A DNA stretch of 64,000 bases from Sorangium cellulosum So0157-2 (GTDB taxonomy: Bacteria; Myxococcota_A; Polyangia; Polyangiales; Polyangiaceae). The notes under the pieces were generated by a model. That model was not told where the DNA came from. It made no database searches and was given only the letters and a program-made list of their open reading frames with translations. A program made the position numbers and the translations under genes. Below are positions 3,196 through 32,380 of this stretch, in pieces (position 1 is the stretch's first letter; the number at the start of each line of letters is the position of its first letter). The stretch is taken from contig NC_021658.1 of NCBI RefSeq assembly GCF_000418325.1, forward strand, positions 11,112,001-11,176,000, written 5' to 3'.

Positions 3196-3846
3196 TCACC
3201 TCGTGGGGGTGAACGGGGCCCGCCACAGCCCGACGAGGGCGTCCACCAGCCCGACCGCGGCGGCCTCCCACGTCGCTCGCGGCGTGGCGGTGCCCGCTTG
3301 CAGCGCCCGCTCACGCTCAGCGCACATGTGCACGATGAGCTGCCGGCTCATGTCGCCGCGCTCCGCGCGCACCTCCTCCGGGAGGACCGGCATGAGCCGG
3401 ATCAGCCCTTCGATGGTCTCCTGCATCGACGTCGAGGCGACCGTCTCGTCGATCACGATGCGGCGGAAGGCAGGGTCGGTCGTCGCCTGGGCGATGAAGC
3501 GCGCATACCAGCTCGGGCTGCCCAGCGAGGCGAGGTGCTCGGTGAGCGGCCGCACCAGGCACCCGATCCAGTCGCGCAGGTCGGACGCGCCCTTGATCGA
3601 CGCCAGCATCTCCGCGCGCCGTCGCTCGATGGCCGGGGCATGGCGGCGGACGACGGCGAGCACGAGGTCGGCCTTGGTGCCGAAGTGATAGCCGACCGCA
3701 AAGTTGTTCGCCTGCCCTGCGGCCTCGCTCACCTGACGGTTCGAGACCGCCGCTACCCCCTGCTCGGCGAAGAGCCGCTCCGCGGTGGCGACGATGAGCT
3801 CGCGGGTCTCGTTCCCGTGCGCTTGCCTGACCCTCGAGCTGGCCAT
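3196..3846 (-). CDS. TetR family transcriptional regulator
   Basis: A 216-residue regulator from ATG 3846; an in-frame ATG at 3858 would add MLAI. The HTH lies at residues about 12-55 (VSNRQVSEAAGQANNF, then AVGYHFGTKADLV). The C-terminal half resembles the TetR_C domain of regulators with a conserved W-Y-A-R-F segment (SPSWYARFIAQ). Its start codon sits only 10-20 bases from the first unit of repeat cluster 1, so the repeats occupy its promoter or leader. No divergent target is adjacent; upstream lies the RAYT-like transposase. Confidence 0.88.
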   Translation of the reverse strand: MASSRVRQAHGNETRELIVATAERLFAEQGVAAVSNRQVSEAAGQANNFAVGYHFGTKADLVLAVVRRHAPAIERRRAEMLASIKGASDLRDWIGCLVRPLTEHLASLGSPSWYARFIAQATTDPAFRRIVIDETVASTSMQETIEGLIRLMPVLPEEVRAERGDMSRQLIVHMCAERERALQAGTATPRATWEAAAVGLVDALVGLWRAPFTPTR

Positions 3847-3868: not shown

Positions 3869-4066
3869 GCGACCCGACCCGGGTTGACCCGCGCGACCCG
3901 ACCCGGGTTGACCCGCGGCGATCCGACCCGGGTTGACCCGCGGATCGACTCGACCCGGGTTGGCCACCGAATCGACCCGGGTTGGCCACCGAATCGACCC
4001 AGGTCGGCAATCGTGTGACCCCGACGCGACCCGACCGGAGACGACGCGACCCGACCCGGGTTGACG
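3869..4066. repeat. Repeat cluster 1: seven CGACCCGGGTTG units
   Basis: Cores CGACCCGGGTTG occur at 3875, 3899, 3924, 3951, 3973 and 4052, with a variant at 3995. Most are spaced 22-27 bases apart, with flanks such as GCGACC before and ACCCGC or GCCACC after. The core is nearly self-complementary around ACCCGGGT. A decayed zone follows to about 4234. The cluster sits between the TetR start and the stop of the RAYT-like gene, in inverted orientation to cluster 2 on the gene's other side. Confidence 0.9.
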
Positions 4067-4234
4067 ATCGCGGCGGTGGTCGAACGCAGGTCGCGACGAC
4101 CTGTGACCGGTCGCCCGAGCCGGGTTGCCAGTCGCGCCGCGACACGGCGACGACTCGCGTCGCCACACGACCAAGCTGTGCGGCGCAATCCAGGTTGCGG
4201 CCGCTCCCTGCGCGCGAGTGCACCGCGTCTGCGT

Positions 4235-5155
4235 CTATGCCGAGACCACGACGTCCTGCACCATGGCACCGTGAAACACGCGCATCCACCACGTCCCCAC
4301 CGGGAATGCGACGCTGCGCACACCGGCGCGCCAGCGTTCGAGCGCCGCGCGGTACGACGCGCGAAAAGCCCGCACAGCAGCACCAGCAATTCGCCAAGCA
4401 TCGCCCTGCTCGCGGCCGACCGCAAACGTAGGATTGCATTCGCGCAGCGCCTCAAAGCTCGTAGCACGCGCGTACGGGGACACCTCACTGACTCGCTCGA
4501 CGCCCAGGAAGCGACGCTCCTGCCGCAGCAGCTCCGCATGAGCCTGTGCTTCCTGTCGCGCGAGCTCGGCGGCGACCTCTTGGCGGAAGGCCTCCGCGCC
4601 GTCCTGTTCAATGACCGGCGGCAGCAGGAGCGAGAGCGTAATCTCCTCAGGCCACTGAGGGTTTTCCGGGTCGAGATACACAGAGGGGCGCGCGGCGTGC
4701 AGCACGCCGCGACCGAGCGCGTCCATATCCACCTTGGCGCCCGGCCACTCACGCGCATGTCGGACGAGGCCAGCAGCCACGGGATTTGCGAGGATATACG
4801 CGATTTTCTCCACTACGGCCGCGCGCGTCAGCAGCCGTACCACGCTCGGGGCCTCATGGTCCCACACCGGTCCTTCCCATGTGCGGAGCGCCTTCGTGCC
4901 GAGCGCGACGATGCGATGGAAGAATTGCAGGAAACGCGGCAAGACCCCCGCCACGTCGGTCACGATCAAGTGCAGATGCGTTGACATCGCGCAGAGCGCG
5001 TGGATCTGGAGGCCATAGCGCCGCGCCGATACCGCCAGGGCGTAAATCAGGAGCTGAGTGATCGCCGCGTCGGGGCGGAAGAGCAGATGTCGACGCAGGA
5101 CGCGACGGGTGATCATGTATGTGGCGCCGGGAGTTATCTCGCGGGGCTGGCTCAT
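4235..5155 (-). CDS. REP-associated tyrosine transposase-like protein (RAYT, Y1/HUH type)
   Basis: A 306-residue protein from ATG 5155 (MSQPREITPGATYMITRR). The opening G-A-T-Y-M-I-T-R-R, the His-hydrophobic-His motif in MSTHLHLIVTD (near residue 65) and the Tyr-containing motif AYILANPVAAGLV (near residue 115) are the three signatures of IS200/IS605-like Y1 transposases of the RAYT group; the Tyr of YILANP is the presumed nucleophile. The C-terminal half is longer than usual and helical, with no known domain. On both sides lie clusters of a palindromic repeat in opposite orientation, as in REP/RAYT loci. Known RAYTs act on REP hairpins; that this one acts on these repeats is inference. Confidence 0.85.
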   Translation of the reverse strand: MSQPREITPGATYMITRRVLRRHLLFRPDAAITQLLIYALAVSARRYGLQIHALCAMSTHLHLIVTDVAGVLPRFLQFFHRIVALGTKALRTWEGPVWDHEAPSVVRLLTRAAVVEKIAYILANPVAAGLVRHAREWPGAKVDMDALGRGVLHAARPSVYLDPENPQWPEEITLSLLLPPVIEQDGAEAFRQEVAAELARQEAQAHAELLRQERRFLGVERVSEVSPYARATSFEALRECNPTFAVGREQGDAWRIAGAAVRAFRASYRAALERWRAGVRSVAFPVGTWWMRVFHGAMVQDVVVSA

Positions 5156-5340
5156 GGTTGAGCGTGCACTAACAAACACCATACCAACAGTTCCCACGAG
5201 TAATTTCAAGTAGTTATCTTAGCCTTGTGGGTGGCGGCGCCATGGCGCATCCGTGTCCGCCACCTGATTGTTCTTGGCTGCGGCTATCTTTGCCGCTGTT
5301 ACCTTGCTTTGCTTGCTTGTGCTCGTTCTTTCTTTCTATC

Positions 5341-5491
5341 TCAACTCGGGACGGGTCCAACCCGGGACGGGTCCAACCTGGGTCGGGTCGTCCTACCTCA
5401 ACCCGGGACGGGTCCAACCTGGGTCGGGCGACGCCGTGGGTCGGGTCGTCTCGCTTCAACCCGGGACGGGTCCAACCTGGGTCGGGTCGCT
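5341..5491. repeat. Repeat cluster 2: tandem CAACCCGGGACGGGTC / CAACCTGGGTCGGGTCG units
   Basis: Alternating subunits CAACCCGGGACGGGTC and CAACCTGGGTCGGGTCG repeat from 5341 to 5491, with spacers TCCTACCT and TCTCGCTT. The orientation is the reverse of cluster 1. The last unit abuts the stop codon of the AraC gene at 5490. The stretch 5156-5340, between the RAYT start and the cluster, is unusually T-rich, pyrimidine-biased on the + strand, and holds no gene I can support. Confidence 0.9.
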
Positions 5492-6404
5492 ACCCCCGAT
5501 AGGCTCCCGGGGGAACCCCGACCTCTCGACGAAATGCGACGCTGAAGGCGGCCTGGTCCCGGTAGCCCACGGACGACGCCACCTCGGCGAGGGCAAGCTC
5601 GGGATGCTCCCGCAGCTTCTCCTTCGCCAGCTCCATACGCCAGCGCATCAGGTGCCGGAGCGGGCTCTCCCCCACCTGCTCGCGAAATGCATGAGCGAAA
5701 CCCGAGCGACTCATGCCTGCCCGCCGCGCGAGCGACGCCACGGTCCACGTGCGCTCCGGCGCCAGGTAGAGCGCGTCTAGAGCGCGGGCGACGCGCTCGT
5801 CCGCGAGCGCGGCGCGAAAGGAGCCAGGAGGCGCGGGGCGCTCGAGCTCCGCGCGAATCGCCTGCAGCAGGAGCAGCTCCGCGAAGCGCGCGGCCATCAC
5901 CGGTGCGCCAGGTCGCCGGACGTGCACCTCGTCGCGGATGCCGTCCAGGAGCCGCCCGAGACCGGGCACGGGCTCTCCGGCGCCGCCGTCGAGGAGCACC
6001 ACCGAGGGCAGCGCGCGCAGCAGCAGCGACCTTCCGGCGCCGACGAGGCTCATGGCGGCGCAGAGCACCACCGTCTTCGCGCCGTCGCCGCCAAGCCGGC
6101 GCCGCACCGTCTGCACACCCGGCGCAGGAGGCGCGAGCCAGCGCCCCTCGTCCTCGACCGGTGCCCCAGGTCGGTGCCGGAGGCAGTGGGGAGCGCCGTG
6201 GGGCAAGAGCAGCAGGTCGCCCCGACCCACGTGAATCTCTCGGCCATCCAGCTCCAGCCACATCTCGCCTTCGAGCAGGAGGTGGAGCAAGACGAGCTCT
6301 CGCCGGCCGACGCGGGCCCCCCAGGGGGCTCCGAGCTCGACACGGCCGAAGTGGCTGGCCTCGATGCGCACGTGGCGGAGCAGCGCGGTGAGGACATCCG
6401 GCAT
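5490..6404 (-). CDS. AraC family regulator with cupin-type sensor domain
   Basis: 304 residues. The N-terminal half (about 1-180) is a cupin-like sensor with HLLLEGEMWLELDG and LLLLPHGAPHCLRH, the pattern of AraC_binding/Cupin_6 regulators. The C-terminal double HTH (about 205-300) includes SLARRAGMSRSGFAHAFREQ and AEVASSVGYRDQAAFSVAFR. It is divergent from the NAD(P)-binding reductase at 6497 with a 92-bp gap, and in this family such pairing usually means direct control of the neighbour. The stop codon touches repeat cluster 2. Confidence 0.92.
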   Translation of the reverse strand: MPDVLTALLRHVRIEASHFGRVELGAPWGARVGRRELVLLHLLLEGEMWLELDGREIHVGRGDLLLLPHGAPHCLRHRPGAPVEDEGRWLAPPAPGVQTVRRRLGGDGAKTVVLCAAMSLVGAGRSLLLRALPSVVLLDGGAGEPVPGLGRLLDGIRDEVHVRRPGAPVMAARFAELLLLQAIRAELERPAPPGSFRAALADERVARALDALYLAPERTWTVASLARRAGMSRSGFAHAFREQVGESPLRHLMRWRMELAKEKLREHPELALAEVASSVGYRDQAAFSVAFRREVGVPPGAYRG

Positions 6405-8579: not shown

Positions 8580-8668
8580 CTCAACCCGGGTCGGGTCGCT
8601 TGCCGGGTCGGGCTGCCCGGGCTGCCCGGGTTGACCCCGCGCGCGGCTCAACCCGGGTCGGGTCGCTC
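8580..8668. repeat. Repeat cluster 3: CAACCCGGGTCG units
   Basis: Units CAACCCGGGTCGGGTCGC at 8582 and 8649 flank a GCCCGGGCTGCCCGGGTTGA segment in the other orientation. The second unit supplies the final codons (RPDPG) and the stop of the glycosidase-like gene. Apart from the cluster, the 312-base gap from 8336 to 8647 upstream of the AraC start holds only an A+T-richer patch near 8515-8580 that could be promoter. Confidence 0.85.
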
Positions 8669-32070: not shown

Positions 32071-32115
32071 CGAGGTGTAGATGACGGCCGTGACCCAGGG
32101 GCCGGGCGGCGGCGT

Positions 32116-32380
32116 GCCGACCCGGGTTGGGTACCGGCGTGCCGACCCGGGTTGGGTACCGGCGTGCCGACCCGGGTTGGTGCCCGGCGTGCCGACCCGG
32201 GTTGGGTACCGGCGTGCCGACCCGGGTTGGGTACCGGCGTGCCGACCCGGGTTGCGGCCCCCGGCCTGACCCGGGTTGAGGTCCCGGCGGCCCGACCCGG
32301 GTTGCGGTCCTCCCGCCCGACCCAGGTTGGGGTCCCGCCCCAGGTAGAGGTCCCGCCCCGCCTACCCAACCCGGGTTGAG
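32116..32380. repeat. Repeat cluster 4: exact 25-bp tandem array with degenerate tail
   Basis: Six units of GTGCCGACCCGGGTTGGGTA-type sequence with a period of exactly 25 bases start at 32116, 32141, 32166, 32191, 32216 and 32241. More divergent copies of the CGACCCGGGTTG core follow to about 32380 (flanks GAGGTCCCG, CGGTCC). All three frames are stop-free through the array, so it creates spurious long ORFs. It lies between the start-less Cys-rich gene and the RsbR-like gene. The rest of the 515-base interval to 32585 shows no gene. Confidence 0.93.

Follow-up and report, generated by a model that had tools for sequence, protein, structure and literature searches.

We propose that a transposase locus in Sorangium cellulosum So0157-2 is probably one copy of an IS-like (TIRtron-like) element whose ends have been multiplied into REP-like arrays. 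The locus lies in a stretch of 64,000 nucleotides (the window) that spans bases 11,112,001-11,176,000 of a genome assembled as one contig (14,782,125 bp). The observations behind this reading are the inward arrangement of a short repeat (the box) around the gene, the match between box variant and transposase clade, nine box-bounded left ends in Anaeromyxobacter oryzisoli, one presence/absence site, and array spacers that are partly specific to their locus.

A transposase gene between two box clusters

The gene (4235..5155, minus strand) encodes a Y1/HUH tyrosine transposase of 306 aa, starting at an ATG at 5155 (MSQPRE...) that is kept in close paralogues. The protein has an HLH motif at residues 60-62, a presumed catalytic tyrosine (Tyr120) and a C-terminal domain at about residues 150-306. 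Downstream of the gene lies a cluster of GACCCGACCCGGGTTG-type boxes (3871..4063, plus strand), and upstream of it a cluster in which GACCCGTCCCGGGTTG alternates with GACCCGACCCAGGTTG (5342..5489, minus strand); both read inward, toward the gene. The upstream cluster abuts the end of a gene for an AraC-family regulator with a cupin domain by Pfam (5490..6404, minus strand), and the other neighbour is a TetR-family regulator (3196..3846, minus strand; Pfam TetR_N, 4.7e-8). A Y1/HUH protein between oppositely oriented repeat clusters had been proposed in a sequence-only reading of this DNA, and the arrangement is real. The seven units counted there on the left come down to six exact copies of CGACCCGGGTTG (at 3875, 3899, 3924, 3951, 3973 and 4052), the copies at 3996 and 4117 being degenerate. 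On the right, the alternation described there is present as CAACCCGGGACGGGTC at 5358, 5399 and 5457 and CAACCTGGGTCGGGTCG at 5374 and 5473, with degenerate copies at 5342 and 5415.

Boxes also occur beyond those reported earlier. A satellite pair of perfect boxes (8582-8597 and 8649-8664; 8582..8664, minus strand) lies about 3.4 kb from the transposase gene, and a gene-less tandem array of the variant GTGCCGACCCGGGTTG (32114..32378, plus strand) repeats the same 12-nt core with a period of about 25 bp. This array has a distinct 5' part, GTGCCGACCCGGGTTGGGTA, and lies about 27 kb from the gene. The exact 12-mer CGACCCGGGTTG is found 15 times in the whole window (six left of the gene, two at 8582-8660 and seven in the array at about 32.1 kb), where 0.01 are expected from 100 shuffles. 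The reversed box pattern, searched as a control, had no match in any of 108 genomes; with both results we rejected an origin of the boxes by chance or composition.

The box and its inward orientation

A logo built from 396 boxes that flank related genes in six genomes gave a conserved unit of 16 nt, GACCCGACCCRGGTTG, beyond which conservation is weak. We counted boxes of the form GAC(4)GTTG within 950 bp of the 46 loci of the transposase clade, in eight genomes including the source genome. In total, 378 boxes face inward and 29 outward (93% inward). Inward boxes occur on both sides in 32 of the 44 loci with full flanks; the other 12 comprise ten one-sided loci and two (L072 and L073) with inward boxes on neither side. 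Box density is 4.75/kb near the genes vs 0.32/kb at 1.5-9.5 kb. A gene bracketed by clade-specific inverted repeats, as in a REPtron, is therefore what we found at most loci.

In other respects the box differs from a classical REP. The REP foot GT[AG]G is absent from the consensus and stands within the 12 nt before only 19 of the 378 inward boxes. Predicted folding of the commonest box (the A-variant) yields -0.4 kcal/mol in the sense and -1.5 kcal/mol in the antisense strand, compared with -4.4/-4.3 kcal/mol for the G-variant and -0.2/0 kcal/mol for the variant of genome G051, so a single box lacks the stable stem-loop of a classical REP. A 69-nt stretch with three boxes folds better than its own shuffles (z -3.6). 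Recognition of the box could be by sequence, by paired boxes, or in double-stranded form via the C-terminal domain; as candidate substrates among box-type sequences we name GACCCGACCCAGGTTG, GACCTGACCGTGGTTG and the Anaeromyxobacter box. Nor does the source genome show dispersed, high-copy repeats around a gene that is not multi-copy: its 14.8 Mb hold 115 relaxed-pattern boxes, which are clustered, and nine copies of the gene. We thus rejected the boxes as classical REPs, since they have no GTAG foot, almost no hairpin in the commonest variant, tandem arrays concentrated near genes rather than dispersed, and a multi-copy gene with signs of movement. The earlier suggestion of a separate REP/RAYT family unlike classical REPs consequently survives in part: the inward bracket recurs and variants tend to follow clades, but these are not REPs in the usual sense.

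The transposase and its C-terminal half

The NCBIfam model NF047646 (REP_Tyr_transpos) matches residues 5-138 of the window protein (E 1.4e-14) with 54.2 bits, below its curated cut-off of 80 bits. It matches 40 of the 41 aligned proteins at E<=0.01, an E-value threshold and not the 80-bit cut-off. A profile of the 41 members matches the TnpA_REP structure in PDB 4er8 (E=1.7e-5, profile positions 5-146), and H60, H62, Y120 and N124 are invariant in the alignment (n=41 sequences). With its HUH motif, single tyrosine and 4er8 match the protein is a member of the Y1/HUH group; the Y1_Tnp model matches 18 of the 41 members at E<=0.5, and the window protein is not one of them. From the alignment to 4er8 and known Y1 chemistry, we take Y120 to be the catalytic residue.

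The C-terminal half is indeed unusually long, as had been remarked from the sequence; the protein has 306 aa vs 165 residues in the TnpA_REP chain of 4er8, which matches only positions 5-146 of the profile. An AlphaFold model (mean pLDDT 92.5, pTM 0.90) has high confidence almost throughout, most of residues 150-306 included, and this half adds two strands and several helices. We found no Pfam match to it at E<=1. When we looked for an HTH-like C-terminal domain, one of the 41 members gave a weak match to HTH_71 (E 0.11), and no family matched convincingly enough to identify the domain.

Distribution and box variants

Ten proteins of the source genome match, the window protein among them; of the other nine, seven are 75-81% identical to it, one is 62% identical, and the last, from another clade, 42%. 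The genome thus carries nine clade copies, including the window gene, and one distant homologue. In a tree of 73 proteins, the copies from Sorangium, Minicystis and Byssovorax form one clade of 46. L048 (source genome) and L066 (So ce26, G101) represent a second clade with about 41-42% identity and lack the bracket; about 9 kb from L048 lies a gene-less array.

A homologue is present in 26 of 108 family genomes. The strict box GACCCGACCYRGGTTG occurs in seven of the 108, six of the same genus (with 100, 38, 62, 66, 56 and 16 copies) and G052 with one stray match and a homologue. None of the 82 family genomes without a homologue has the strict box; the earlier reading would have been contradicted by equal abundance of the repeat in such relatives, and this did not occur. 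The exact box is absent from G067 (Minicystis rosea) and G046, which have genes with 65-74% identity. No clear box was seen at the copies in G009, G010 and G012. G009 and G010 harbour another multi-copy lineage (L140-L144 and L233-L242; 12-14 matches per genome) with no visible end boxes, in which likeness between non-syntenic copies begins about 108-125 bp before the gene.

The box variants tend to follow the transposase clades, a match that the sequence-only reading had suggested looking for. A CCRG loop is commonest in 33 of 34 core loci vs 3 of the 10 other loci that have two or more boxes (p=2.3e-5, a value that ignores the kinship of the sequences and depends on a core/other split made after the variants were seen). 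Diverged clades carry GACCGTGGTTG or TGACCGACGTTG. G051, whose protein is about 41% identical, has GATCCGACCGAGGG boxes, 25 in its genome vs 0-4 in each of the 107 others. A de novo repeat search with shuffled controls covered 35 of 80 further loci; three of these (L203 in G051, L245 and L221) stood well clear of the control, with repeats inward on both sides, and the rest were near or below it.

At six loci (L039, L044, L050, L053, L059 and L084) the upstream boxes are all A-type and the downstream boxes all G-type at the R position (p <0.04 each, uncorrected, 20 loci tested), which suggests that the two ends of the element can evolve apart. L145 (G054) has a one-sided array upstream of a 33%-identical homologue, with GACGCAACGT-like 10-mers found 19 times upstream (one mismatch allowed) and none downstream.

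The box as a terminal inverted repeat in Anaeromyxobacter oryzisoli

A. oryzisoli SG63 has nine full-length homologues in nine places, and our analysis of their ends covers these nine of 11 loci, leaving out the partial L235 and L253. Each of the nine is bounded by a 12-bp terminal inverted repeat, CCCGACCGAGAG ... CTCTCGGTCGGG. On the left, the likeness between copies starts at CCCGACCGAGAG, 116-119 bp before the start codon, in all nine (L209 has CCTGACCGAGAG); on the right, the reverse-complement box stands 220-392 bp after the stop codon in all nine (L207 with one mismatch). Conservation at the left end, as the share of the commonest of the nine bases, is 99% in the box columns, 48% in the 33 bp outside and 75% in the 60 bp inside. 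The motif GACCGAG[AG]G occurs 24 times inward and never outward at these loci. Singly, they lay near the control in the de novo search; the box was recognised by pooling the nine.

Judged from this pattern, the boxes look like the ends of an IS-like element. Terminal inverted repeats thus take the place of REPs in A. oryzisoli, as in a TIRtron, and in Sorangium the ends are arrays. In L209 and L212 the end box is doubled in tandem, with bases from outside the box between the copies, and in L215 a longer end piece is duplicated; the Sorangium arrays look like this end doubling taken further. We read no empty site for these copies from a search of the phylum (377 genomes), in which upstream matches end near the insertion point and downstream matches are separate.

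Signs of mobility

At L045, the source genome carries 1,696 bp (the gene and both arrays) that are missing from the sister species G100, where the flanks are contiguous. This could be an insertion in the source lineage or a deletion in G100. The insert is bordered by a 19-bp direct duplication, which is not expected of Y1 elements. The scan supports no general rule of target-site duplication: 40 of 41 scanned loci score within the control range. L056 has 24 of 27 bases alike and a score of 18, above all 1,640 control pairs (largest 15), while L045 itself scores just 11 because the scanned stretch cuts off its 19-bp duplication.

At L049 (So ceGT47, G102), flanks conserved with four other genomes break off at most 5 bp from the first box, and conservation returns about 13 bp beyond the last; those four genomes have other DNA in between. 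At the left junction of L049 (about 9186), the neighbour gene, compared with its form in the other genome, has its last codons replaced by the array, in which GGTTGA provides a new in-frame stop. No clean empty sites were found at the window locus, L040, L046 or L054, where relatives carry other DNA or are rearranged; L045 is the only one found. In another So ceGT47 clade member, L055 (contig 10559826-10562209), the first 28 codons are separated from the rest by about 1.5 kb with a 422-residue open frame that looks IS-transposase-like by eye; about 9 bp are duplicated.

Near-identical genes lie at different places in two genomes (L042/L044 and L067/L068). L042 and L044 are 99% alike, and what they share is the gene plus flanks of about 147 and 54 bp, to the exclusion of the arrays. 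Since the identity does not extend into the arrays, the copying was confined to the core, which would fit transposition into an array or gene conversion. Syntenic genes can also be less alike than their flanks (L041/L067, 80% vs 87%; L042/L068, 83% vs 89%), a pattern that fits gene replacement. Many loci are syntenic between species, and movement is therefore slow or infrequent.

These syntenic loci, together with the inverted bracket and the co-variation of box and RAYT, would also be expected of a conventional REPtron, in which a domesticated, stationary RAYT mobilises REP-like boxes that pile up around it. REPs are likewise reported to be concentrated next to a rayt gene in Marinomonas REPtrons (PMC8266576). 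We nevertheless consider a conventional REPtron unlikely, given the lack of a GTAG foot, the weak hairpins, the nine gene copies in the source genome, the near-identical pairs in two genomes, the absence of gene and arrays from an orthologous site (L045 vs G100), and the role of the box as terminal repeat of nine scattered A. oryzisoli copies.

Possible growth of the arrays

Arrays in Sorangium reach 33 boxes on a single side (at L041, with one mismatch allowed), and some arrays have exact periods of 18-27 bp. Over pairs, identity of the 10-nt spacers is 0.67 within arrays vs 0.31 between loci. When each array is counted once, the mean of 53 array means is 0.46, with 18 of the 53 above 0.5; the pairwise figure is higher because large arrays drive it, and the spacer evidence is weaker when arrays are weighted equally. 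The source genome also has 16 gene-less clusters. Of these, 4 lie within 10 kb of a clade member, where 0.20 are expected, and 9 lie within 50 kb, where 0.98 are expected; none of 20,000 random placements gave as many as 9. These statistics rest on 100 of the 115 box sites. The gene-less stretches L132-L139 contain nine multi-copy clusters, eight with a single orientation and one (L133) mixed.

Alike spacers in some arrays, exact periods and the fact that L042 and L044 have only the core in common could all be explained if the arrays were passive minisatellites produced by replication slippage, with a transposase that needs at most one box per end and paralogues homogenised by gene conversion. 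Such minisatellites would not be expected to keep the box while spacers vary, to place 93% of boxes inward or to cluster near these genes far above chance, and we regard this explanation as improbable, although it is compatible with an IS-like element and both can be true together. It is very improbable that the boxes serve the transposase or the TetR/AraC neighbours as double-stranded operators or other regulatory sites: the core is near-palindromic and the window clusters lie beside regulator genes, but at many unrelated sites the box goes with the transposase clade, and it is missing from the 82 family genomes without a homologue.

The reading we prefer, an IS-like element with multiplied ends, would work as follows. 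The transposase would belong to a clade of Y1/HUH proteins, mostly from Myxococcota, that have a long C-terminal domain, and the 16-nt box would be the terminal inverted repeat of the element and probably the site that the transposase recognises. Tyr120 would nick single-stranded DNA at or beside the box and rejoin it; we infer this processing of the box by the protein from sequence patterns. A. oryzisoli would have kept one box at most ends. In Sorangium, tandem duplication of the box and adjacent bases, through repeated end recognition or slippage, may have given the two inward-facing arrays, which may travel with the gene, though not always, as L042 and L044 show. Some arrays would have ended up at other places, many of them close to a copy of the gene.

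Comparison with known systems

The IS200/IS605 family uses subterminal hairpins, whereas the ends here are a short, weakly folding box, multiplied in Sorangium. The expected Y1/HUH chemistry and the multi-copy nature of the element are common to both, as described in part in PMC6006769. REPtrons with their RAYTs (TnpA_REP; E. coli, Pseudomonas, Stenotrophomonas) share the catalytic core and inverted flanking repeats specific to the transposase group, but classical REPs are dispersed stem-loops with a GT[AG]G foot.

The element works like a TIRtron or REPtron in that a Y1 transposase is paired with a flanking repeat of its own. Its boxes fall outside the definition of a REP, and it agrees with the TIRtron concept except for the GGGGWSAS motif. 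TIRYTs are Y1/HUH tyrosine transposases told from RAYTs by length and signatures, and their TIRtrons have flanking terminal inverted repeats without GTAG, as here; some of these TIRs make up moderate families whose members stand alone, in dimers or in groups (Di Nocera et al. 2013, PMC3733652). GGGGWSAS, seen in some TIRs (PMC3733652), has no inward bias here (28 inward and 23 outward at the 46 clade loci; 1 and 3 at the nine A. oryzisoli loci). Long tandem TIR arrays are not described in section 16 of PMC3733652, and words beginning myxo, delta or Sorangium do not occur in its main text.

Among the TnpA_Y1 classes, 2.1 and 2.3 similarly have a long C-terminal domain on the Y1 core, and a genome can have more than five genes of 2.3 (Quentin et al. 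2018, PMC6006769). In contrast to our loci, no REP-like sequences were found near those genes (PMC6006769), and Pfam searches gave no clear counterpart here of the HTH-like C-termini described there for 2.1, a comparison made by description. Class 3, described as resembling both IS and REPtrons, has atypical flanking structures without GTAG and three closely related genes in one genome; it differs in its 5' foot CnGA and its Y----Q motif, where our proteins have Y120 with an invariant N124 (PMC6006769). We found no report of this repeat in the open-access literature, including the available text of PMC6006769, PMC8266576, PMC3733652, PMC2817692, PMC3696898 and PMC12306157.

A possible path from transposon ends to repeat families

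The flanking sites are now assigned to a Y1 clade with a long C-terminal domain. One clade may even preserve the passage from a simple IS with one 12-bp end box (Anaeromyxobacter), through two-box ends with bases from outside, to REP-like arrays and gene-less satellites (Sorangium), all driven by the transposase; we put this forward as a tentative idea. The origin and spread of REPs are an open question, partly since the RAYT genes examined to date seem to stay in place. A relative with many copies, apparent mobility and both single-box and array ends would be a natural series in which to follow array growth, end recognition and the co-evolution of protein and repeat. From it one may learn how repeat families arise out of simple jumping genes. 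If the transposase does drive such a passage, REP-type repeat families would originate as multiplied transposon ends, and a REPtron could still be mobile.
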